Shown piece after piece: positions 27,936 to 38,752 of a stretch of DNA of 64,000 bases (positions are counted from its first letter, which is position 1; each line of letters starts with the position of its first letter). The DNA comes from Lachnospiraceae bacterium (lineage in GTDB: Bacteria; Bacillota; Clostridia; Lachnospirales; Lachnospiraceae). The position numbers were made by a program, and so were the translations under genes. The stretch is from positions 1 to 64,000 of the forward strand of contig JAFYCS010000076.1 of NCBI GenBank assembly GCA_017539565.1. Reading direction: 5' to 3'. Under the pieces are notes generated by a model. It was not told the origin of the DNA, did no database searches, and saw only the letters and a list, made by a program, of their open reading frames with translations.

Positions 27936-30900
27936 TTAATTGATATTATACATATACCTCTCTTCGTCTGTCAGACTGTCATAGGGGAACTGACGCTTAT
28001 ATTCTGCCTCAAGTTCCTCCAGGTTCATGCAATGCCCGCGATAAACCTGCCTGTAATTCCGCTGGATATAGCTGTTATCATCTGAGGTATATGTTATCCC
28101 AAAAGGCACATATGCCACCAGCCTATACCCGCCTGTCTCGATCAGATACATTCCACACGGGTCAAATAAAGCCATATATCCTCTATCAGCTGCAGTCATT
28201 GAATAATCGATAGAATAATCTGCGCTAAAGTATCCGAGCCATTTTCCCTCTGCCAGCCCCCATATCCTGACCATGTAATCATCCCCCTGGGTAATAAGAC
28301 GTTCGCCGTCTGCTGTAAACTCAATAAAAACTCGGCTTGCAATCCCAAGAGGTATTTCCGCTATGACTTTGTTTGACTGGTTCTCAATAACACGTACCAT
28401 ATTATCCACACAGCACATAGCGGTAAATCTGCCGTCAGGACTTAAGACCAGATAATTATACGAATAAAGATTCGCCACCTCCCTTAATCTGTCACCTGTG
28501 ATATCTGTCCTTTCACCGCTTGTTGTGTCGACATAATACAGATCCGTATTATCCTGTGATACATATAGCCTGCTTCCGTCATTTGTCACTATAGCTTTGC
28601 CTACTAACTCATCCGCTTCGTATGAAAACACCATATTTTTAGCAGCCACATCAACAACGTATAATTTTCTCCCGCTTTTGCAGACAATATAAGCTCCGTT
28701 ATCTGCTATCATCACCTCTGTTGCATATGAATCTACTCCCATATCTTCAAATTTATCTATCTCAGTATTCCCCGTAACAGGATCTATGATCATCATCTCA
28801 TCTTTAGAAGCGATAAGAAAACTGTTCCGGTAGAATTCTGTTTCCAGAACATACTTGCCGAGACCATCTGATGAATAGATCTGTTTTCCGTCCCCGTCAT
28901 AAAAGTAATACTCTGAATTTACCTTATTGCCCAGAACATAATATTCGCCTTCTGATGACCACCCGAAACACTTGCAGTCATCTTGCTCCGCATCCAGTAA
29001 CGGAAGTACTGCATTTTCGCTATTTGGAAATGAAAGGATGTACACATCCGGTGACAGGGCAGATCTGAACAGAATACTGTCGTGTATCACCAGGCCATCA
29101 ATGAGAGACTTATCTGTTTCCATCTTGCTTCCTTTAAATTCTTCTCCCGTCGCGGGATCAACCGGCAGGATATCTCCGTTATCGTAAACGATATAGATAT
29201 AACGGCTGTCATCGGATACCAGTACAAAGGAGACGCCCTTTTCATAGTCGGCCCTGTGCACCGTTGATCCGTCGTCCTCGTTTAAGTAAAATATCGTATT
29301 CTCTATACTGAATACTATTTCTTTGCTTACAACCCCTTCACCGTCATCATAATCCTGTGAACAGAGATCTGACCGGAATGTAACCCAGTCTTCCAATTCA
29401 AAATCCAGCTCATTGATCCATATCCTTTCTCCGCTCTGATCAAAAAGCTCAACGTATAAAGCTCCTATATCTCCGGCGCTGGTAAGCAGATCATTTTCAC
29501 TGCTCACAACAACGGTATTTCCCGATTTAGTCATACATACATCAAAAACATCATTACCTGAACACTTTACATCTGTCATGCTGTTTTCGTTCACATTGAT
29601 AAAAGAAATGACGCTCTCCCCACCGGCAACGGGCCCGGAATGGGCACATACGAACAGACCGCTCTCCGGATAGCATGCCGTAGAGTTTGAAAAACTCTCC
29701 TCCGTTTCCTTATCATAAGTGTAGTTCAGTATACCGTTTCTGGTATCATAAACCTCGATATAATTGTAGTGTACAACAAATACTTCATTTTTATCCGGAT
29801 GGAAATCTGCCTCTACTATCTGATCACTGAGATCTTCGCTCCAGATCACATTTCCCGTATTGTCATATCTGTATAAGGCTTCCGTAGTTGCTATGTATAC
29901 GCTGTCTTCATCTGCGTCCGCATTGACTATATCCGCAGTATAATTGTTTTCCTTTACCACATGAGACACAAACATTTCTTCTGTCCATGTATCTAAAGAC
30001 CACACATGCAGATTATCTCCCGTATCCTGCGTAAGCACCCTTTTCCCGTCGCTGCAAAACTTAAGATCACGTACAACCTGACTATGATGCAGGTTTCTGT
30101 CATAATCCATTTGGGACGGGAAATCGTATACTCTCAATGCGGAGCTTAACGCGTTTTCCGCCTCCGGTATGTAAGGTCTGTCATTTTCGACGGAAGGTAA
30201 TGCTTCCGCTGCCACTAAAACAGCAGCTCTTCTGTTCCCCTCCGCCATAAGCGCCTGTGATTTTTGCGCATAAAAGCGCGACTGATTCTGTAATTTTTCC
30301 TGATATTCAAGCATGATATCATCAGCAAGCTGCGTCTTTTCGGCTGCAAGTGAAGACATCTGTTCGGCAAGTGCCGCCTTATCATTCGCAAGAGTCTCCA
30401 TCTCTTTTGCTACTTTTGCATTATATAGACCGAACAGTGCTCCTGCCGCAGCTACCACGCCGGCCAGCGCAGATATCTCGATCACCATTCTGCGTATCAT
30501 TCTTTCACGATGCCTTTGTTTCAGATCATCATATGAACACCCCAGGATGGGCGCTGCCAGACGCAGGAGTTCCGTATTAAATTTCTTATTCTGTTCCGCT
30601 TTGGTAGCTCCGCGTACATCGGCCGCCAATGGCTCAACAGGATTGCCCTCATCATCGATGGTCAGCTGTTTAGGGAAACTGTCTTCAGGTTCACCCTCTA
30701 CAAGTATCGCCAGAACATGGCTGCGGTCATGCATCGATATAAAGGTCTCGATCTCTCTTTGTACCCAGATTGACTCAGGCGTATAGTGCGAGCAGACCAC
30801 TATAAGATATTCCGACTCCTCCAGAGCTGCTGATATCTCTTCAGTCAGATTACTTCCTATAGGTAATTCTTCCTGGTCACGGAATACCCTTTCAATTTTT

Positions 30901-31025
30901 TTCTTCCCCGTACTCTCACGTACTGATGCCGGTACGGGAAAGGTTTCCAGTCCTTTATGTAGTTTCTTTGCTATCTCCATATCCAGCGGCATATGGCGAT
31001 AACTTATAAATGCATCGTATTTCAC
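27936..31025 (-). CDS. TIR domain - membrane helix - beta-propeller protein, GTG start
   Basis: 1029 residues from a GTG preceded by GAGGAGG. Residues 1-150 form a bacterial TIR domain (KYDAFISYRHMPLD, RVFRDQEELPIGSN, EYLIVVCSHYTPES). The W87xxxE91 element corresponds to the segment that carries the catalytic Glu in NAD-cleaving TIR enzymes. One membrane helix (about 185-205, VIEISALAGVVAAAGALFGL) and a short coiled coil follow. About 700 residues of WD40/PQQ-like repeats would then lie outside the cell. It may link an external ligand or protein to a cytoplasmic TIR activity; whether it is an NADase is unproven. It lies 10 bases after a coiled-coil membrane gene and 17 before DUF3021-LytTR. 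Confidence 0.85.
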   Translation of the reverse strand: MKYDAFISYRHMPLDMEIAKKLHKGLETFPVPASVRESTGKKKIERVFRDQEELPIGSNLTEEISAALEESEYLIVVCSHYTPESIWVQREIETFISMHDRSHVLAILVEGEPEDSFPKQLTIDDEGNPVEPLAADVRGATKAEQNKKFNTELLRLAAPILGCSYDDLKQRHRERMIRRMVIEISALAGVVAAAGALFGLYNAKVAKEMETLANDKAALAEQMSSLAAEKTQLADDIMLEYQEKLQNQSRFYAQKSQALMAEGNRRAAVLVAAEALPSVENDRPYIPEAENALSSALRVYDFPSQMDYDRNLHHSQVVRDLKFCSDGKRVLTQDTGDNLHVWSLDTWTEEMFVSHVVKENNYTADIVNADADEDSVYIATTEALYRYDNTGNVIWSEDLSDQIVEADFHPDKNEVFVVHYNYIEVYDTRNGILNYTYDKETEESFSNSTACYPESGLFVCAHSGPVAGGESVISFINVNENSMTDVKCSGNDVFDVCMTKSGNTVVVSSENDLLTSAGDIGALYVELFDQSGERIWINELDFELEDWVTFRSDLCSQDYDDGEGVVSKEIVFSIENTIFYLNEDDGSTVHRADYEKGVSFVLVSDDSRYIYIVYDNGDILPVDPATGEEFKGSKMETDKSLIDGLVIHDSILFRSALSPDVYILSFPNSENAVLPLLDAEQDDCKCFGWSSEGEYYVLGNKVNSEYYFYDGDGKQIYSSDGLGKYVLETEFYRNSFLIASKDEMMIIDPVTGNTEIDKFEDMGVDSYATEVMIADNGAYIVCKSGRKLYVVDVAAKNMVFSYEADELVGKAIVTNDGSRLYVSQDNTDLYYVDTTSGERTDITGDRLREVANLYSYNYLVLSPDGRFTAMCCVDNMVRVIENQSNKVIAEIPLGIASRVFIEFTADGERLITQGDDYMVRIWGLAEGKWLGYFSADYSIDYSMTAADRGYMALFDPCGMYLIETGGYRLVAYVPFGITYTSDDNSYIQRNYRQVYRGHCMNLEELEAEYKRQFPYDSLTDEERYMYNIN

Positions 31026-31035
31026 CGGGACCTCC

Positions 31036-31641
31036 TCACTCTGCTTCTTCCAGTTTGCTTACCTGCTGCTCTCTAAGCCTTTGGATCTCGGAATTCAGTT
31101 CTCCTCTTTCCTTCTCAAGAAGTTCATGCTCCTCTTCGATCTCCTTAAGCTTACCTGAGAGCTCCTCCTGTTTCCTTTCCGTGGAACTTTTACCTCTCTT
31201 TTTCATTAACGTTAATCCCGCGATCCAGAAGACCAGCGCCGATATCAATAATGTCCAATACTCTCTTAAATATATCCAGATCACAAACAGCAGTATGGGA
31301 CAGATGATCACAAATACTATAAAGACGAATATCTGGAACATGTCGGTCTTTTTTTCCCATTGTCGTTTCCCGATCCCCGTCATTGCAGTGATGATCTCCA
31401 TCTGCCGTCTTTCCAGATAGATCATCCTGCTTACTACCCTTGACCGCCGTTCACACTTTTCGGAAAGCACCTTCACTCTTTCCATATTCTCCCTTGAGCC
31501 CCATTTATCTTCTGACTTTAACAAGGCATCAGGAATATCCCCCCCGTATGATATACGGAGTTCTTCTTCAGAAGCCTGCCCGTCTTCCGAAACGGGCTCT
31601 TCATTTTTACCCAGATAGAATATTGTATCTTCTTTTTCCAT
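31036..31641 (-). CDS. Two-helix membrane protein with C-terminal coiled coil
   Basis: 201 residues. A polar N-terminal 85 residues, two adjacent membrane helices (MFQIFVFIVFVIICPILLFVIW and LLISALVFWIAGLTLM) and a heptad-rich Glu/Lys/Leu coiled coil to the end. No enzyme motif. It starts the signalling cluster, 10 bases before the TIR-propeller gene, so a partner or scaffold role for the TIR protein is plausible. The promoter -10 box is 8 bases from the ATG, so the message should be leaderless; no ribosome site fits in that gap. Family not recognised. Confidence 0.75.
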   Translation of the reverse strand: MEKEDTIFYLGKNEEPVSEDGQASEEELRISYGGDIPDALLKSEDKWGSRENMERVKVLSEKCERRSRVVSRMIYLERRQMEIITAMTGIGKRQWEKKTDMFQIFVFIVFVIICPILLFVIWIYLREYWTLLISALVFWIAGLTLMKKRGKSSTERKQEELSGKLKEIEEEHELLEKERGELNSEIQRLREQQVSKLEEAE

Positions 31642-31649
31642 ATCTTAAT

Positions 31650-31678
31650 ATTTTACCATTTATTGCACTCCCGCGCAA
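31650..31678 (-). promoter_or_regulatory. Promoter of the TIR/HD-GYP signalling cluster
   Basis: Minus strand -35 TTGCGC (31673-31678), 17-base spacer, -10 TAAAAT (31650-31655). The ATG at 31641 starts 9 bases after the box. It lies directly after the glmS terminator. Confidence 0.65.
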
Positions 31679-31680
31679 CG

Positions 31681-31707
31681 AAAAAGACAGAGGCCGAAAC
31701 CTCTGTC
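31681..31707 (-). terminator. Rho-independent terminator after glmS
   Basis: Minus strand GACAGAGG-TTTCGG-CCTCTGTC followed by TTTTT, 24 bases past the glmS stop codon. Confidence 0.9.
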
Positions 31708-31731
31708 TTCTGTATCATTGCTGTCCTTAAG

Positions 31732-33573
31732 TTACTCCACCGTAACTGATTTAGCCAGGTTCCTGGGCTTGTCGATATCACAGCCCTTGCCCAGAGCAAC
31801 ATAATATGCAAAAAGCTGCATGGGCACTATCGCCAGGCTGTTAGCCATCCACTGGTTGGTGGTGGGTATGTGTATCACATAATCCGCAGCTTTTTCTATA
31901 TCCTTGTTGCCTTCATTTGTAACTGCCAGCACAAAGGCACCACGGCTCTTGACTTCCACCATATTACTTACGGTCTTCTGATACAATGCCTCCTGGGTAG
32001 CCAGCGCAGTTACCAGTGTTCCCTCTTCTATCAGGGAAATGGTACCATGCTTAAGCTCTCCTGCTGCATATGCCTCGGAATGAACATAGGATATCTCCTT
32101 AAGCTTAAGTGCACTTTCCAGCGCCGTGGCATAATCCGCGCCGCGTCCTATATAGAACACATCCTTTGCGCCTATATATCGGTTTGCAAAACGCTGTATC
32201 CGCTTTCTGCTCTCAAGCAGCATCTCGACCTGGTCGGGCAGCCGCTGTATGTCTTCAAGCAGTTCCTTAAAGTATTCATCAGTAACTGTTCCACGCACCC
32301 TTGCGAATTTCATGGCCAGCAGATAGAGCGCTATAAGCTGTGCACTGTATGCTTTTGTGGTGGCCACCGCTATCTCCGGTCCTGCCCAGGTATACATTAC
32401 CTTATCGGCTTCACGTGCTATGGCACTTCCTACCACATTTACTATACCCAGCACAGGAAATCCCTTGCTCTGCGAAAGATGCAGGGCTTCCTTGGTATCT
32501 GCAGTCTCACCCGACTGGCTTATAACTATTACCAGTGCTCCTTCTTCTATGATGGGATCACGGTAACGGAATTCGGAAGCCAGATCCACCTCAACAGGAA
32601 TACGCGCCAGGCCTTCTATCACATACTTTCCGCTCATACCAGCATGATAAGCAGAACCGCAGGCCACGATATGTATCTTCCTGATAGCCTTTATCTCTTC
32701 ATCGCTCATATTAAGTTCTTCGATAACAATATCGTTACTTCTGATACGGGGATTATTCTGCGGTATGAGTGTCTCCCTTATAGCCTTGGGCTGTTCATAC
32801 ATTTCCTTTAACATAAAATGCTCATAACCGCCCTTTTCGGCAGCATTGGCATCCCAGTCGATCTCAGTGGGCTGCTTTTCCAGTTCCTCTTCATCTATCG
32901 AATAAAAATGAAGCTCATCAGCCTTAAGGCATGCTATCTCCTGATTCTCAACATAATATACCGTACGTGTATGCTTAAGCATTGCCGGTACATCGGATGC
33001 GATAAAGCATCCCTCCTCATTGCGTCCCACAACCAGCGGAGAGTCCTTACGCACCGCATATATCTCATCCGGATGATCCGCAAATATGATGCCAAGTGCA
33101 TAAGATCCTTCTACTCTGTGCATTACTCTGGTTATCGTCTCCAGGGGATTCCCCTTATAGTAACGGTCCAGCATATGGGCCAAAACTTCCGTATCAGTCT
33201 CCGAGTGGAATTTATAACCCTTTTTTGTAAGCTTATCACGCAGCTGAATGTAGTTTTCTATTATACCGTTATGAACAACTGCAATGGTCTCGGCCTCATT
33301 GAAATGAGGATGCGCGTTCTCGTTACTGGGGACTCCATGCGTAGCCCAGCGTGTATGCCCTATTCCCGCATGCCCGGGAAGCAGGCTTCCCCCATGGGTC
33401 AACTCATCCAGCACCTTAAGTCTTCCTACGGATTTCTCGTAAGTGAGTTTTCCGTCCTCACTGATAATGGCCATACCTGCAGAGTCATAGCCTCTGTATT
33501 CCAGTTTCTCAAGCCCGCCCAGTATTATCGGTGCAGCCTGATTCTTTCCTATATATCCAACTATTCCGCACAT
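31732..33573 (-). CDS. glmS: Glutamine--fructose-6-phosphate aminotransferase (isomerizing)
   Basis: 613 residues, the normal length. Makes glucosamine-6-phosphate from fructose-6-phosphate and glutamine, the first step to UDP-GlcNAc. The N-terminal class II glutamine amidotransferase has catalytic Cys2 (MCGIVGYIG) and TRWATHG. Two SIS sugar-isomerase domains follow (VACGSAYHAGMSG, ISQSGETADT, IGRGADYATALESALKLKEISY). The C-terminus ends DKPRNLAKSVTVE as in GlmS. The start is 2 bases after a glycosyltransferase gene, so there is no room for its own ribozyme leader. The glmS-type ribozyme is instead four genes upstream, before nagB. A strong terminator follows. Confidence 0.97.
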   Translation of the reverse strand: MCGIVGYIGKNQAAPIILGGLEKLEYRGYDSAGMAIISEDGKLTYEKSVGRLKVLDELTHGGSLLPGHAGIGHTRWATHGVPSNENAHPHFNEAETIAVVHNGIIENYIQLRDKLTKKGYKFHSETDTEVLAHMLDRYYKGNPLETITRVMHRVEGSYALGIIFADHPDEIYAVRKDSPLVVGRNEEGCFIASDVPAMLKHTRTVYYVENQEIACLKADELHFYSIDEEELEKQPTEIDWDANAAEKGGYEHFMLKEMYEQPKAIRETLIPQNNPRIRSNDIVIEELNMSDEEIKAIRKIHIVACGSAYHAGMSGKYVIEGLARIPVEVDLASEFRYRDPIIEEGALVIVISQSGETADTKEALHLSQSKGFPVLGIVNVVGSAIAREADKVMYTWAGPEIAVATTKAYSAQLIALYLLAMKFARVRGTVTDEYFKELLEDIQRLPDQVEMLLESRKRIQRFANRYIGAKDVFYIGRGADYATALESALKLKEISYVHSEAYAAGELKHGTISLIEEGTLVTALATQEALYQKTVSNMVEVKSRGAFVLAVTNEGNKDIEKAADYVIHIPTTNQWMANSLAIVPMQLFAYYVALGKGCDIDKPRNLAKSVTVE

Positions 33574-33575
33574 AT

Positions 33576-34514
33576 TTACTCCTTATAACTCTTCCAATAT
33601 CTCTTATTCATGGTCAGTTTCATGATCAGCCACAGCGGCAGTTTCTTATATGCTTTTCCCAGTTTATAGCCTGCCAGTTTGCACGCTGAATTTATCACCA
33701 CACCGGGAATCATTGCATAGCTGCCTTTTTTACAGAGCATTCCCATCATGCCCCTTATCATGCGTATGCCTTCCGACTGCGATGATACCCTTTCAAACAG
33801 TTCCGGGAACTGTGCCTGCGATACACCCAGATCAAAATTCCGCTTAAGCTGCTGTATCGCAGTGTAATGATGCGTATGTAATACCCTGGCTTCCGCCACA
33901 TAAGCGACGGATCCGCCGGCATCAACCATTCTTCCCGCATAGACCATATCTTCATTAAAGATCATATGCTTCTCAAATCCGCCCAGACCGTTATAAACAT
34001 TTCTGTCATAAGCTGCACAGGCATTCGAACAGAAGAAGGTCTTTATCCCAAGCTCCTCCATATCCTCTTTACTCTTCAGTCTTGATACTGCAGGATAATT
34101 AAAGCGTCTGGAGAATTTTTCAACTATATCCGCTTCTTTTCCGGCCAGCTGTCGGGCATAAGCAGCAGATGCTTTTTTATCCGTAAGCGGTTTTATAAGA
34201 TTCTCCACAAGATACTTATCCAGCGGCAGAGCATCATCGGTCATACAGATAAAATAATCTGCTTTTGATATGGATACCGCCATCCGTCTTGTGGTTCCGT
34301 GATCAAACTGATCTTCACTTATATGTCTGAGCACTATGTCATCGGCTTCAAAAAATGACATATCACTCTTAAAGGCCTGCTCAAAATAGGCACGCCCCGT
34401 ATTGATCAGTATTATCCTGTTCACCGGATATGTCTGACGTCTTAAACGTGATATTATCTTCTTTAACCGTTCATCCGGTTTATATACCGGAATGATCACA
34501 TCCACTGTCTTCAT
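33576..34514 (-). CDS. Family 2 glycosyltransferase (rhamnosyltransferase-like)
   Basis: 312 residues. The GT-A fold start is VDVIIPVYKPDERL, with the acceptor/nucleotide part DYFICMTDDALPLD as the DxD-type metal motif. AYDRNVYNGLGGFEK and FNEDMVYAGRM are typical of WbbL/RfbN-type enzymes. The basic C-terminus suggests the membrane face of the cytoplasm. It would add a sugar from a nucleotide donor to a surface glycan. The start codon lies 11 bases after the U tract of a terminator that follows glmM, and glmS begins 2 bases after its stop. Confidence 0.88.
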   Translation of the reverse strand: MKTVDVIIPVYKPDERLKKIISRLRRQTYPVNRIILINTGRAYFEQAFKSDMSFFEADDIVLRHISEDQFDHGTTRRMAVSISKADYFICMTDDALPLDKYLVENLIKPLTDKKASAAYARQLAGKEADIVEKFSRRFNYPAVSRLKSKEDMEELGIKTFFCSNACAAYDRNVYNGLGGFEKHMIFNEDMVYAGRMVDAGGSVAYVAEARVLHTHHYTAIQQLKRNFDLGVSQAQFPELFERVSSQSEGIRMIRGMMGMLCKKGSYAMIPGVVINSACKLAGYKLGKAYKKLPLWLIMKLTMNKRYWKSYKE

Positions 34515-34525
34515 GAAACTATCCT

Positions 34526-34563
34526 AAAAAGACTGCCCACTCCTATCCAGGAATGCGGCAGTC
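34526..34563 (-). terminator. Terminator or attenuator between glmM and the glycosyltransferase gene
   Basis: Minus strand stem GACTGCC/GGCAGTC (34531-34563) with an inner CATTCCT/AGGAGTG helix and GGAT loop, then TTTTT (34526-34530). It separates nagB-acyltransferase-glmM from glycosyltransferase-glmS unless it is read through. Confidence 0.85.
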
Positions 34564-34576
34564 CTTTCTGCTTGCT

Positions 34577-35929
34577 TTATGCTTCTGCTAAATGTCCCTG
34601 TGCCCTGATGACATCGATCACGCTGTCCACGTACTTTTCACAGATCTCATCACTGCCTGCTTCAACCATTACGCGGATAACAGGTTCTGTTCCGCTCTCA
34701 CGCACCAGGATACGTCCCTCATCTCCAAGCGCCTTGGCCACTTCACTGACCGCCTCCTGAACCTTAGGATCATTCTGTGCATCAGGCTTGCTCTTAACGC
34801 GTACATTCTTGAGTACCTGGGGATAGAATACCACAGGCGCCGCAAGTTCGCTCATGGGCTTTTCCTTTGCCAGCATTACTTCCATCATCTTAAGTGATGT
34901 AAGGATACCATCACCGGTGGTAGCATATTTTGTAAATATGATATGACCGGACTGCTCTCCGCCGATACGGTGTCCGTTGGTCACCATATTCTCATATACA
35001 TATTTATCTCCCACCTTGGTCTTCTCATATTCGATACCCACTTTATCCAATGCCTTATAGAGACCGAAGTTACTCATAACTGTAGTGACCACCTTATTAT
35101 TGAGAAGCTTTCCGCGCTCCTTCATATACAATCCGTAGATATAAAGTATATGATCACCTGTGATCACATTGCCCTTCTCATCCACACAAAGGCAGCGGTC
35201 TGCATCTCCGTCATAAGCAAATCCCACATCCAGGCCCTTCTCCACAACAAACTTCTGAAGGTGCTCGATATGCGTAGAACCGCAGTCCGTATTGATATTA
35301 TATCCGTCCGGGCTGTCATTCATCACATAAGTCTTTGCTCCAAGGGCATCAAACACGCCCTTTGCTATCTGCCATGCAGCACCGTTTGCCACATCAAGCC
35401 CGACCTTAACGTCCTTGAAGCTGTACTTGGACATGGAGATCAGATATCCGATATAACGGTTACGTCCGGCAACATAATCCACCGTACGTCCGATATGATC
35501 ACGCTCCGCAACAGGTATTTCCAGCTTACCATCTATGTAATCTTCAACCTTTAAGATGGTCTCTTCATCCATCTTCTCGCCCTTACCGTTTAAAAGCTTT
35601 ATACCATTATCATAGTACGGATTGTGTGATGCGGAGATCATTATGCCGCAGTCAAAATCATCAACACGTGTAATATATGCCACGGAAGGAGTCGTTGTTA
35701 CATGCATTATGTAAGCATCTGCTCCGGATGCCATAAGCCCCGTGCACAGCGCATATTCAAACATATAGCTGGAACGTCTTGTATCCTTGCCGATAACTAT
35801 CTTGGCTTTCTTACCTTCCTTTTCACCATAATACCAGCCCAGGAAACGTCCGATCTTGATGGCATGTTCAAATGTCAGATTTTTGTTAGCCTCGCCACGA
35901 AATCCGTCTGTTCCGAAATATTTACCCAT
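34577..35929 (-). CDS. glmM: Phosphoglucosamine mutase
   Basis: 450 residues. Converts glucosamine-6-phosphate to glucosamine-1-phosphate. The catalytic phosphoserine is in MISASHNPYYD (near residue 102), the metal loop is DGDADRC, the sugar loop GGEQSGH and the phosphate loop RESGTEPVIRVM. It starts GKYFGTDGFRGEAN like other GlmM proteins. Its ATG overlaps the upstream acyltransferase gene by 8 bases, so the two are translationally coupled. A strong terminator follows. Confidence 0.96.
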   Translation of the reverse strand: MGKYFGTDGFRGEANKNLTFEHAIKIGRFLGWYYGEKEGKKAKIVIGKDTRRSSYMFEYALCTGLMASGADAYIMHVTTTPSVAYITRVDDFDCGIMISASHNPYYDNGIKLLNGKGEKMDEETILKVEDYIDGKLEIPVAERDHIGRTVDYVAGRNRYIGYLISMSKYSFKDVKVGLDVANGAAWQIAKGVFDALGAKTYVMNDSPDGYNINTDCGSTHIEHLQKFVVEKGLDVGFAYDGDADRCLCVDEKGNVITGDHILYIYGLYMKERGKLLNNKVVTTVMSNFGLYKALDKVGIEYEKTKVGDKYVYENMVTNGHRIGGEQSGHIIFTKYATTGDGILTSLKMMEVMLAKEKPMSELAAPVVFYPQVLKNVRVKSKPDAQNDPKVQEAVSEVAKALGDEGRILVRESGTEPVIRVMVEAGSDEICEKYVDSVIDVIRAQGHLAEA

Positions 35930-36587
35930 TATCTCTTTTCCTCACAATCTCTCCGTTATTTTTGTATATGGAATTCTCAGGTACCACTCCGCGCACGCAG
36001 GAAGTGGGATATACATTGGAATTCCTTCCTACTACAGTACCGGGATTACATACCGAATTACAGCCTACTTCTACATGATCTCCCAGCATGGCACCGAATT
36101 TCTTGATTCCTGTTTCCATTTCTTCCGTACCATTATGTACTACAACCAGTTTCTTGTCCGATTTGACATTGGAAGTGATGGAACCGGCACCCATATGTGA
36201 ATAGTATCCAAGTATAGAATCACCTACATAATTATAATGGGGCGTCTGAACATGATCGAAAAGGATCACATTCTTAAGCTCTACCGAATTTCCCACAACG
36301 CAGTCTGCGCCTACCAACGCTGAACCACGAATAAATGCGCAGTGGCGTACTTCGGTATTGGGTCCTATGATACAAGGTGCCCCAAGATAAGCAGTGGGGA
36401 ATACCTTTGCGGTCTTATGTACCCATACATGCTCTTCACGCTCCTCGTATTCGTCTCCAAGAGTAGGCCCAAGCTCAAGTATAAAGTCCTTTATACCTTT
36501 AAGCGCTTCCCAGGGATAGGTAAACTGAAGCAGATAATCTTTAGCCAATGTATGATCCAGGTCATACAGATCTTTGATCGTATACAT
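35922..36587 (-). CDS. GlmU-like left-handed beta-helix acyltransferase, single domain
   Basis: 221 residues from the ATG at 36587 (MYTIKDLYDLDH), one base after the nagB stop; a longer in-frame extension overlaps nagB and is rejected. After about 55 helical residues it is a hexapeptide-repeat beta-helix (AKVFPTAYLGAPCIIGPNTEV, ALVGADCVVGNSVEL) with a C-terminal part like the GlmU acetyltransferase (YVGDSILGYYSHMGAGSITS, KKFGAMLGDHVEVGCNS, NPGTVVGRNSNVYP). The GlmU uridylyltransferase domain is absent. Between nagB and glmM it most likely acetylates an amino-sugar phosphate, but the acceptor is inferred from context only. Confidence 0.85.
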   Translation of the reverse strand: MYTIKDLYDLDHTLAKDYLLQFTYPWEALKGIKDFILELGPTLGDEYEEREEHVWVHKTAKVFPTAYLGAPCIIGPNTEVRHCAFIRGSALVGADCVVGNSVELKNVILFDHVQTPHYNYVGDSILGYYSHMGAGSITSNVKSDKKLVVVHNGTEEMETGIKKFGAMLGDHVEVGCNSVCNPGTVVGRNSNVYPTSCVRGVVPENSIYKNNGEIVRKRDNG

Positions 36588-36588
36588 C

Positions 36589-37380
36589 TTATAACCTCTC
36601 TTTCTTCTCGATATCCAGGAAGTACTTATAAGTATCAACGGTAAGCTCACCGCATGCCTCTTCATCGCAGGCAATGATAGCACCGTTATGCATCTGCAGT
36701 GCAGAGCAGGTCCACTTCTGGCTGACGCCGCCTTCTACGGTGGCCGCAAGTGCACGCGCCTTATTATGCCCCGATATCAGTACCAGAACTTCTTTTGAGT
36801 CTGTAACCGTACCTATACCTACGGACAGTGCTTTTGCCGGCACCTTCTCCGGATCGTTGCCGAAAAATCTGCTGTTTACTATCCTTGTATCTGTGGTCAG
36901 ATCACGCACACCTGTACGTGAAGTCAGGCTGGTATAAGGCTCATTGAATGCCAGGTGGCCATCTACACCGATTCCGCCCATAAACAGGTCGATACCGCCG
37001 TAAGATGCTATCTTTTCTTCATATCTCCTGCACTCTCCCTCCGGATCGTCTGTCATACCGTTTAAGATATTGATATTCTCCGGCTTCATATCTACCAGAT
37101 GGTTGAACAGATTATCATGCATAAAATACCAATAGCTCTGGTCATGCTCACGGGGCAGGCCCAGATACTCGTCCATATTGAAGGTCACCACATTGGCAAA
37201 AGAGAGCTCTCCCGCTTTGTTCATGCGTACCAGCTCTTTATATACCCCTATGGGAGATGATCCCGTAGGAAGACCCAGCACAAAAGGCCGCGCCTCTTTA
37301 TGTCCGTTTATCTTAGCCGCAATGTAAGCAGCTGCCCACTTACACATTTTTTCGTAATCATCCTGAATAACTACTCTCAT
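36589..37380 (-). CDS. nagB: Glucosamine-6-phosphate deaminase/isomerase
   Basis: 263 residues from the ATG at 37380 (MRVVIQDDYEKM), with AAAGAGGAG 9-10 bases upstream. Interconverts glucosamine-6-phosphate with fructose-6-phosphate and ammonia. Motifs: LGLPTGSSPIGVYKEL, VTFNMDEYLGL with the catalytic Asp, and GGIGVDGHLAFNEP with the catalytic His. No nagA or amino-sugar transporter is nearby; instead a GlmU-like acyltransferase and glmM follow. The leader carries a glmS-type ribozyme, so the gene is predicted to be shut off by glucosamine-6-phosphate. That suits a NagB working in the synthetic direction better than a catabolic one (inference). Confidence 0.95.
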   Translation of the reverse strand: MRVVIQDDYEKMCKWAAAYIAAKINGHKEARPFVLGLPTGSSPIGVYKELVRMNKAGELSFANVVTFNMDEYLGLPREHDQSYWYFMHDNLFNHLVDMKPENINILNGMTDDPEGECRRYEEKIASYGGIDLFMGGIGVDGHLAFNEPYTSLTSRTGVRDLTTDTRIVNSRFFGNDPEKVPAKALSVGIGTVTDSKEVLVLISGHNKARALAATVEGGVSQKWTCSALQMHNGAIIACDEEACGELTVDTYKYFLDIEKKERL

Positions 37381-37399
37381 ATAATAAATTTCTCCTCTT

Positions 37400-37560
37400 T
37401 TTGTGTGATGTAGCGCAGTTGTGAAAAAGTCTCTGTTACAGTTTTGATTCTGCTTTTTGCCCTTTTTCTTTCGACCACTGCGATGGCCGCAGCAACACCC
37501 GCCGAGTCTTTCGATAGTTGCTGTCCTCGTCAACCTGTTACGGTCCTGGCGCTAACACAT
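37400..37560 (-). ncRNA. glmS-type self-cleaving ribozyme in the nagB leader
   Basis: The minus-strand leader contains the conserved core of the glmS ribozyme in order. The cleavage site A/GCGCCAGGACC has the scissile bond predicted between 37553 and 37552. It is followed by GGTTGACGAGG, TATCGAAAGA and CTCGGCGGGTG. A P3-like helix is AGCAAC/GTTGCT, a following hairpin is CGGCC/GGTCG, and the 3' part is A/G-rich. In this class glucosamine-6-phosphate acts as coenzyme for cleavage, and the downstream fragment is then degraded. The ribozyme normally sits before glmS. Here it lies between a strong promoter and nagB. The 3' limit is approximate. Confidence 0.92.
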
Positions 37561-37602
37561 TTCCGATGCCCTCCAAGCAGAAATTGTGTTTTAAATGGTA
37601 AA

Positions 37603-37631
37603 ATTATACACTAATATACTATATATTGCAA
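37603..37631 (-). promoter_or_regulatory. Promoter of the nagB-glmM operon
   Basis: Minus strand -35 TTGCAA (37626-37631), 17-base spacer, -10 TATAAT (37603-37608). The expected start near 37596 gives a leader of about 215 bases that contains the whole ribozyme plus about 43 bases before the cleavage site. Confidence 0.85.
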
Positions 37632-37633
37632 GT

Positions 37634-38752
37634 TCAGTCCACGTCGGTAAAATCTATGTCCATAGCGATCTGAACCGTGTAATCCGGATAGGCTTCCTGC
37701 ACCTTCCGGACCGCCTGACGGTATACACTGCCGCGGTCCTTTGCATCAAAGCTGACCACGATATCAAAACGCATCATCTTATCCTCCCTGTTGAGATAAA
37801 AGCCATGCATCTGCAGCACATACGGATCGGCTGTAACCATCTCCCGGATCTTATCACGCTCTGCTATGGCATCGGGATTACCGGCGTTATCCGAATAGAT
37901 ACTCACTGCCGTAAGTATCACCTTATGCTCCCGGTATACCTTAACCTCTATCCTTCTTATCAGCTTGTCCAGCTCATCTATAGACATGGTATCGGGCACT
38001 TCGATATGCACCGATCCGTTATATGAATCCGGTCCGTAATTATGCATGACCAGGTCATAGGCCCCGCTCACCTCAGGGAAGCTTTTGATGGTCTCCTTGA
38101 TATCCCTTACCAGCTGTCCGTCCACACGCTCTCCCAGCAGTTTGGATACCGTATCGGCTATCATCTCAAATCCTGACTTTATTATCACCAGGGCTATTAC
38201 CGCACCCAGCCAGGCTTCTAATGACACGTTGAATACAACAAATATCACAGCAGCTATCAGGGTTGAGGCAGATATGATGGAATCCATCAGGGCATCTGCA
38301 CCGGAATTGATGAGTGCATCGGAGTTTACCTTCTTACCCGTAGACTTTACGAAGCTGCCCAGGGCTATCTTGACTGCTACTGCTACCGCTACGATGATAA
38401 GTGAAACCGTGTGATATTCAGGAACATCCGGCTTGATTATCTTCTTTACCGATTCTATAAACGCGGTCACACCGGCATACATGACCAGCACGGATATCAC
38501 CATGGCTGTAAGATATTCTATCCTGCCGTATCCGAAAGGATGTTTTTTATCCGGCGCCTTTCCTGCCAGCTTGGTCCCTACTATAGTAATGATGGAGCTC
38601 GCGGCATCCGACATATTGTTTACCGCATCCATCACTATCGCTATGGAATTCGACAGCAGGCCTATTGCAGCTTTGAACCCCGCCAGGAACAGATTAGCCA
38701 GTATCCCTATTATACTGGTACGTATTATTATCTTATCGCGATCTGCTTCCAT
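37634..38752 (-). CDS. Cation diffusion facilitator family transporter
   Basis: About 372 residues. Six membrane helices, with the metal site pair DAVNNMSDAASS and NSGADALMDSIIS (HxxxD/DxxxD-type positions), and a C-terminal cytoplasmic domain of about 160 residues, longer than usual. Exports Zn, Fe, Mn or a similar divalent ion against protons; the usual HD pair is replaced by Asp/Asn-type residues, so the metal is uncertain. Two ATGs are possible (38758 overlapping the lacZ stop, and 38752); the second has GGAG at good spacing. It is the last gene of the ylmH-lacZ run and ends only a few bases before the nagB promoter. Confidence 0.88.
   Translation of the reverse strand: MEADRDKIIIRTSIIGILANLFLAGFKAAIGLLSNSIAIVMDAVNNMSDAASSIITIVGTKLAGKAPDKKHPFGYGRIEYLTAMVISVLVMYAGVTAFIESVKKIIKPDVPEYHTVSLIIVAVAVAVKIALGSFVKSTGKKVNSDALINSGADALMDSIISASTLIAAVIFVVFNVSLEAWLGAVIALVIIKSGFEMIADTVSKLLGERVDGQLVRDIKETIKSFPEVSGAYDLVMHNYGPDSYNGSVHIEVPDTMSIDELDKLIRRIEVKVYREHKVILTAVSIYSDNAGNPDAIAERDKIREMVTADPYVLQMHGFYLNREDKMMRFDIVVSFDAKDRGSVYRQAVRKVQEAYPDYTVQIAMDIDFTDVD

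Follow-up and report, generated by a model that had tools for sequence, protein, structure and literature searches.

The window considered here, the whole 64,000-nucleotide stretch of DNA that was analysed, carries on its minus strand an operon in the order nagB, AT, glmM, a glycosyltransferase gene and glmS, where AT denotes a stand-alone acetyltransferase resembling the C-terminal half of GlmU (Table 1). A single base separates the nagB stop codon from AT, AT and glmM overlap by 8 bases, and gaps of 62 and 2 bases precede the glycosyltransferase gene and glmS, respectively. A search of positions 31000-38000 for terminator-like sites on the minus strand gave none, hence none between nagB and glmS, and glmS is therefore probably co-transcribed with the nagB operon. 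Two genes downstream of glmS, the same strand encodes a protein of 1029 residues that combines a TIR domain at its N terminus with beta-propeller-like repeats.

Table 1. Features of the nagB operon in the window and in comparison loci; positions are those of the stretch named in the second column.
Feature	Stretch	Position	Strand	Remarks
Promoter-like site TTGCAA-17-TATAAT	window	37603..37631	-	10 of 12, consensus match only
Hairpin P0 (name given here)	window	37554..37590	-	predicted fold, z -1.8; abuts cleavage site
GGAGG motif	window	37574-37570	-	near tip of P0 hairpin
glmS-class ribozyme	window	37413..37564	-	RF00234 76 bits; expected cleavage A37553/G37552
nagB ribosome-binding site AGAGGAGA	window	37391..37398	-	read from sequence
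nagB, glucosamine-6-phosphate deaminase	window	36589..37380	-	263 aa; stop included (coding 37380-36592)
AT, left-handed beta-helix acetyltransferase	window	35922..36587	-	221 aa; resembles GlmU C-terminal half
glmM, phosphoglucosamine mutase	window	34577..35929	-	TIGR01455 544.7 bits, over cut-off
Family 2 glycosyltransferase	window	33576..34514	-	
glmS, glutamine--fructose-6-phosphate transaminase	window	31732..33573	-	without own ribozyme
TIR-domain protein	window	27936..31025	-	
Two glmS-class ribozymes of genome G840	L234; L235	2066-2211; 2950-3097		differing subtypes
Ribozyme before glmS in genome G088 (L019)	L233	4075-4224		115.7 bits with the cassette model
yvcK/glmR	L123	5794-6738		starts 12 bases after nagB stop
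yvcK/glmR	L127	4587-5528		locus without ribozyme
yvcK/glmR	L154	2059-3015		

The leader of nagB contains a ribozyme of the glmS class. When the whole window was searched with the Rfam covariance model RF00234, the match covered model positions 1-167 and scored 76 bits (gathering score 37, E = 1.1e-15), confirming the class that the initial annotation had placed at the head of the operon; it is the sole match in the genome of the window (G000, 99.75% complete). The invariant core motifs AGCGCC, GACGAGG and TCGGCGG are all present in the order previously claimed, and the bond proposed for self-cleavage agrees with that expected from the family. The ribozyme lies, as had been read, between the promoter-like site and the nagB ribosome-binding site, and glmS is indeed located about 3.8 kb downstream of the nagB start, 2 bases after the preceding gene. 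The wording that the ribozyme heads nagB instead of glmS is correct if only the first gene is meant; for the operon as a whole it fails, because the window glmS belongs to the operon and follows the ribozyme. The promoter-like site has the top score among the 11 such sites in 31000-38000, a number that does not exceed that in shuffled sequences (mean 13.3). The core motifs were also unchanged in 29 of 29 aligned ribozyme rows, an invariance that is circular outside the window because the rows were chosen by a pattern containing the core.

The ribozyme was found in 25 of 150 genomes of the family, in 22 of them immediately ahead of a glmS that shares about 43-48% identity with that of the window and in three before nagB or AT. 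These three are the window genome, G039 and G053; in the latter two the gene next to the ribozyme, AT or nagB, is 89-90% identical to its window counterpart, and glmS is on another contig. A genome of the same genus as that of the window (G004) gave neither a ribozyme nor a nagB match, so the cassette, as the ribozyme-headed set of nagB, AT and glmM is called here, is patchy even inside the genus. With an E-value limit of 1e-80, the NagB subfamily turned up in five of the 295 order-level genomes and in 16 of the 391 at class level, the window genome being counted in both. The ribozyme heads the genes in G000, G039, G053, G431, G258, G222, G267 and G683 (NagB identity 86-100%). Within the fetched stretches no ribozyme was found in G679 (88%) or G795 (81%), and no ribozyme, AT or glmM in 12 other class-level relatives (69-75%).

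A wider set was formed by the best 80 of 579 confirmed NagB loci. A model built from 29 cassette ribozymes (R1) detects ribozymes in 38 of these 80, at 84-150 bits, comprising 37 of the 61 loci whose NagB is at least 80% identical to that of the window and one of the 19 below this value. The first gene after the ribozyme is nagB in 30 loci, AT in seven and glmM in one, and in none is it directly glmS. The initial annotation had offered two readings, that NagB serves synthesis or that the whole operon is the target; the relatives support the set nagB, AT and glmM as the target. Among the best 80 loci the commonest order is ribozyme-nagB-AT-glmM (19 loci), and AT-nagB-glmM, AT-glmM-nagB and nagB alone also occur. 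No ribozyme was found in 24 of the 61 loci with NagB of at least 80% identity (for example L133, L135, L137, L138 and L152); four of these 24 have the order nagB-glmM-AT. Adding eight further genomes to the 38 loci gave 46 cassette ribozymes, L088 and L155 being the same place.

Most loci come from metagenome bins labelled Lachnospiraceae, Ruminococcaceae, Oscillospiraceae or Erysipelotrichaceae, and the eight further genomes span four family codes. This mixture of labels, together with the changing neighbours, suggests that the cassette spread laterally, with binning errors possible for single loci. The record titles of the 38 ribozyme loci name a gut section in nine cases, carry a RUG or RUI code, which we take to be a rumen genome code, in 21 and have neither in eight; for the 42 ribozyme-less loci among the best 80 the figures are 23, 11 and eight, so ribozyme loci are not separated from the others by source. 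A conserved wider neighbourhood was considered and rejected, since other frequent clusters, where inspected, overlay the cassette genes on the opposite strand; beyond nagB, AT, glmM, some glmS and yvcK, none of the 30 largest among the clusters listed occurred outside a handful of loci. Searching phages with the leader gave no match.

The cassette ribozymes form a recognizable sub-lineage. R1 gives them 84-152 bits and gives 21 of the 22 glmS leaders of the family 28-69 bits; the window ribozyme, part of the training set, scores 144.9 bits, and the 17 of 46 cassette ribozymes outside that set score 84-138 bits. Among 28 distinct cassette ribozymes, aligned with MAFFT and judged against the RNAalifold consensus of the same alignment, pseudoknots not counted, 95.9% of the cells are paired and 17 of 30 pairs have changed on both sides, values that shuffles equalled in none of 500 trials on four of five measures and in one of 500 on the fifth. 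In a tree of 64 ribozymes, whose alignment was fitted to a cassette-built model and is thus biased toward a split between cassette and glmS leaders, 41 cassette ribozymes form one branch (support 92) and the glmS leader L019 is its sister (support 98). L019, although it precedes a glmS, is of the cassette subtype and perhaps near the donor leader of the cassette branch. On a NagB tree of 87 rows, ribozyme presence requires 15 gains or losses, whereas every one of 500 shuffles needed more, a distribution compatible with a single origin of the association. The sub-lineage was probably taken once from a glmS leader and then travelled with nagB, AT and glmM.

A reading that keeps the usual target holds that the ribozyme still acts on glmS, a rearrangement having inserted nagB, AT and glmM as passengers, so that the whole operon is repressed. 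It draws on the position of glmS as the last gene of the chain in the window, L121, L154 and L189 and on the lack of terminator-like sites noted above. The content of the 45 genomes with a cassette ribozyme, searched with RF00234 under filters that could lose weak matches, argues otherwise. A single RF00234 match was obtained in 44 of the 45, and the score was over the cut-off in 44, that of G831 (36.4 bits) being just under it. In all 37 of these genomes that belong to the best 80 loci, the match, or one of the two in G840, is the cassette ribozyme, and in the eight further genomes the match positions agree with the cassette places. Of the 36 genomes with a glmS over the cut-off, 30 (G840 included) carry it and the cassette ribozyme on separate contigs, the glmS of 29 of these 30 having no ribozyme match; on the same contig it lies downstream in four (G000, G806, G829, G842) and upstream in two (G431, G811). 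In seven of the 61 loci with NagB of at least 80% identity the ribozyme precedes a nagB with no AT, glmM or glmS adjacent, the flanking genes varying or sitting on the opposite strand, and in L126 glmS is upstream of the ribozyme. G840 has two ribozymes, one before nagB and one of another subtype directly before glmS, which the cassette model separates at 135 and 65.8 bits. Because loci without glmS carry the ribozyme, retention for the sake of glmS appears quite unlikely; the placement at the head of a nagB cassette is well supported.

The same genomes bear on the role of the partner genes. A glmM over the cut-off is present in 37 of 45, in 31 of the 37 with one on the contig of the ribozyme, and only G222 has two. 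Bifunctional GlmU exceeds the cut-off in six of 45, including two of the seven genomes with a known completeness of at least 90%; in eight more a strong match (219-301 bits) is confined to the N-terminal part of GlmU. From these counts the cassette seems to hold, in many genomes, the housekeeping glmM and the best acetyltransferase candidate. Among the cassette genomes it seems common for the GlmU pathway to be split and for the acetyltransferase to stand alone. The presence of glmS in 36 of 45 means that NagB is not needed there as the only source of glucosamine-6-phosphate (GlcN6P). Missing glmS was dropped as a proof of synthesis by NagB: it is absent over the cut-off in nine of 45 cassette genomes, but also in 13 of 41 genomes comprising G820 and its relatives, in a comparison of bins without stated completeness.

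The window NagB matches TIGR00502 over its full length (378 bits, cut-off 236.9). The catalytic residues D72, D141, H143 and E148 (E. coli numbers) are kept in all of the best 80 of 579 loci. The GlcNAc6P pocket, judged from sequence with numbering via the alignment and the allosteric residues listed in PMC4281351, carries the changes S151T, R158G and K160R in 80 of these 80 loci and keeps Y254 in 80 and Y121 in 79. The altered pocket also occurs in all 42 of these NagBs without a ribozyme, so it is not tied to the ribozyme. AT matches the GlmU model TIGR01173 with 53.3 bits against a cut-off of 366.85, over the C-terminal half only, and thus does not qualify as a bifunctional GlmU; it is also under the Arch_glmU cut-off. 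By sequence and by fold its best matches are chains of Sulfolobus tokodaii ST0452, the best fold match (E 7.5e-5) having a modest TM-score of 0.44 with a model of mean pLDDT 70.4 whose C-terminal half is weak. Its H117, invariant in 29 of 29 rows, corresponds in an ungapped alignment to ST0452 chain residue 308, a histidine that we take to be catalytic in ST0452 and GlmU. AT is a candidate GlcN-1-P N-acetyltransferase. In three loci a yvcK/glmR gene (TIGR01826 over the cut-off) stands beside the nagB genes; the GlmR of Bacillus subtilis has a part in diverting carbon to the cell wall (PMC6171935).

Taken together, these observations make it probable that the cassette supplies UDP-GlcNAc, that feedback by GlcN6P switches it off and that at least part of the NagB activity within it is directed toward synthesis. 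Known glmS ribozymes switch their gene off at high GlcN6P. Plentiful GlcN6P would thus bind the leader ribozyme and lead to self-cleavage between A37553 and G37552; the cut mRNA, with a 5'-hydroxyl end and its 5' hairpin gone, would be degraded, and NagB, AT and GlmM, in the window also GlmS, would drop together. NagB working in reverse would form GlcN6P from fructose-6-phosphate and free ammonia, and nagB, AT and glmM would be a compact unit moving among gut Clostridia and their allies with its ribozyme sub-lineage. The direction of NagB is inferred from the logic of the switch, the biosynthetic partners, the altered allosteric pocket and the lack of a convincing nagA in two genomes that are essentially complete. 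An off-switch is counterproductive on a drain and constitutes feedback on a source, which argues for NagB as a source that feeds cell-wall synthesis; since the partner genes, moreover, encode the steps that follow in synthesis, the most likely direction of NagB is the reverse one, at least in part.

That NagB is instead catabolic or near equilibrium, balancing GlcN6P against fructose-6-phosphate in an operon whose genes are merely made together at low GlcN6P, is unlikely. Such a role would suit an enzyme described as reversible and usually catabolic (PMC4281351, PMC11593775) and the 18 of 45 cassette genomes, four of the seven with a known completeness of at least 90% among them, in which nagA is over the cut-off; in those 18, NagB could also serve GlcNAc breakdown. 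Three more genomes fall just below the nagA cut-off (204-220 bits against 225.65), and absence of nagA as a general rule was dropped in view of the 18. Against this reading, G431 (100% complete) gave no nagA match and G000 (99.75% complete) one partial match of 24.6 bits, the partner genes are biosynthetic, and switching off a drain would worsen an excess of GlcN6P. Thermodynamics counts against the synthetic direction. The equilibrium constant of NagB, 0.2 M, favours deamination (PMC11593775), and synthesis would therefore need a strong pull by GlmM and AT; with 10 mM ammonium and 1 mM fructose-6-phosphate, values chosen for the estimate, at most about 0.05 mM GlcN6P would be formed. The NagB of Akkermansia was reported as unable to make GlcN6P at physiological conditions (PMC5902328).

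The 5' end of the transcript deserves separate mention. The 46 bases before the cleavage site of the 46 cassette leaders tend to fold better than shuffles (mean z -2.0), with z below -1 in 38 and below -2 in 21, and GGAGG occurs in 35 of them, often close to the hairpin tip. For the comparison glmS leaders the mean z is -0.9, and GGAGG is present in three of the nine that a sequence pattern caught among 22. A hairpin of the P0 type may, as a guess, guard the 5' end until the ribozyme removes it. It could also be imagined that cleavage activates, the loss of the hairpin opening the mRNA and nagB acting as a drain for excess GlcN6P. A predicted hairpin, often GGAGG-tipped, does precede the cleavage site in most cassette leaders, so the cut alters the 5' end strongly, but glmM and AT on the same transcript would increase too. 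Moreover, mutation of the glmS ribozyme of B. subtilis raised glmS mRNA more than 50-fold (PMC6171935), showing that the ribozyme represses there. Activation by cleavage is accordingly very improbable, and repression of a synthetic cassette is retained as the favoured reading.

A broader proposal, made tentatively and with somewhat less than even confidence, is that in gut Clostridia, many of ruminant origin, the laterally spread cassette has made NagB an ammonia-dependent GlcN6P synthase under a GlcN6P ribozyme of its own, parallel to or replacing the glutamine-dependent GlmS. The cassette would then perhaps be the main UDP-GlcNAc supply unit, with the acetyltransferase of a split GlmU and, as a rule, the only glmM. 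The rumen is rich in ammonia, and it can now be tested whether bacteria of ammonia-rich habitats assemble amino sugars directly from free ammonia. The glmS ribozyme is a textbook RNA tied to one gene. Its recurring pairing with nagB in many gut bacteria may mean that NagB in these bacteria helps cell-wall synthesis to draw on free ammonia. With a ribozyme sub-lineage that moved to nagB and spread alongside it, regulation becomes a clue to the direction of a reversible enzyme, and the set of genes affected by drugs against the glmS ribozyme becomes wider. A 2011 survey by McCown reportedly placed all but two of 463 glmS ribozymes in glmS mRNAs; the two exceptions may be of the nagB-cassette kind. 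A literature search for the glmS ribozyme with nagB, deaminase, rumen or gene context, which covered titles and abstract openings, mostly of papers outside subscription journals, did not find the arrangement. The accessible parts of PMC2258182 and PMC11477304 place the ribozyme before glmS only, and those of PMC3766115 and PMC9481103 hold no nagB context for it.

Compared with known systems, the window ribozyme is like RF00234 of the B. subtilis type in fold, catalytic core motifs, leader position and predicted cofactor, GlcN6P. The usual place of RF00234 is the glmS leader, whereas here nagB, AT or glmM comes first and the ribozymes form a separate branch. With the hexameric NagB of the Escherichia coli and Haemophilus type the deaminase shares the full-length TIGR00502 match and the catalytic residues; it differs in that S151, R158 and K160 read T, G and R and in that its gene sits with glmM and AT. 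A precedent for NagB running backwards is the deaminase of Giardia lamblia, described as a GlcNAc6P-insensitive enzyme of the NagB family making GlcN6P from ammonia (PMC4281351), although Giardia is a eukaryote without GlcN6P synthase and the direction was measured there, while it is deduced here. AT resembles the C-terminal half of GlmU and ST0452 in its left-handed beta-helix, but stands alone without the nucleotidyltransferase half. In the cdaA-cdaR-glmM-glmS operon of B. subtilis, glmM likewise adjoins glmS and a glmS ribozyme is present (PMC6171935); that ribozyme is part of the 5' untranslated region of glmS, whereas in the cassettes it stands before nagB, AT and glmM.
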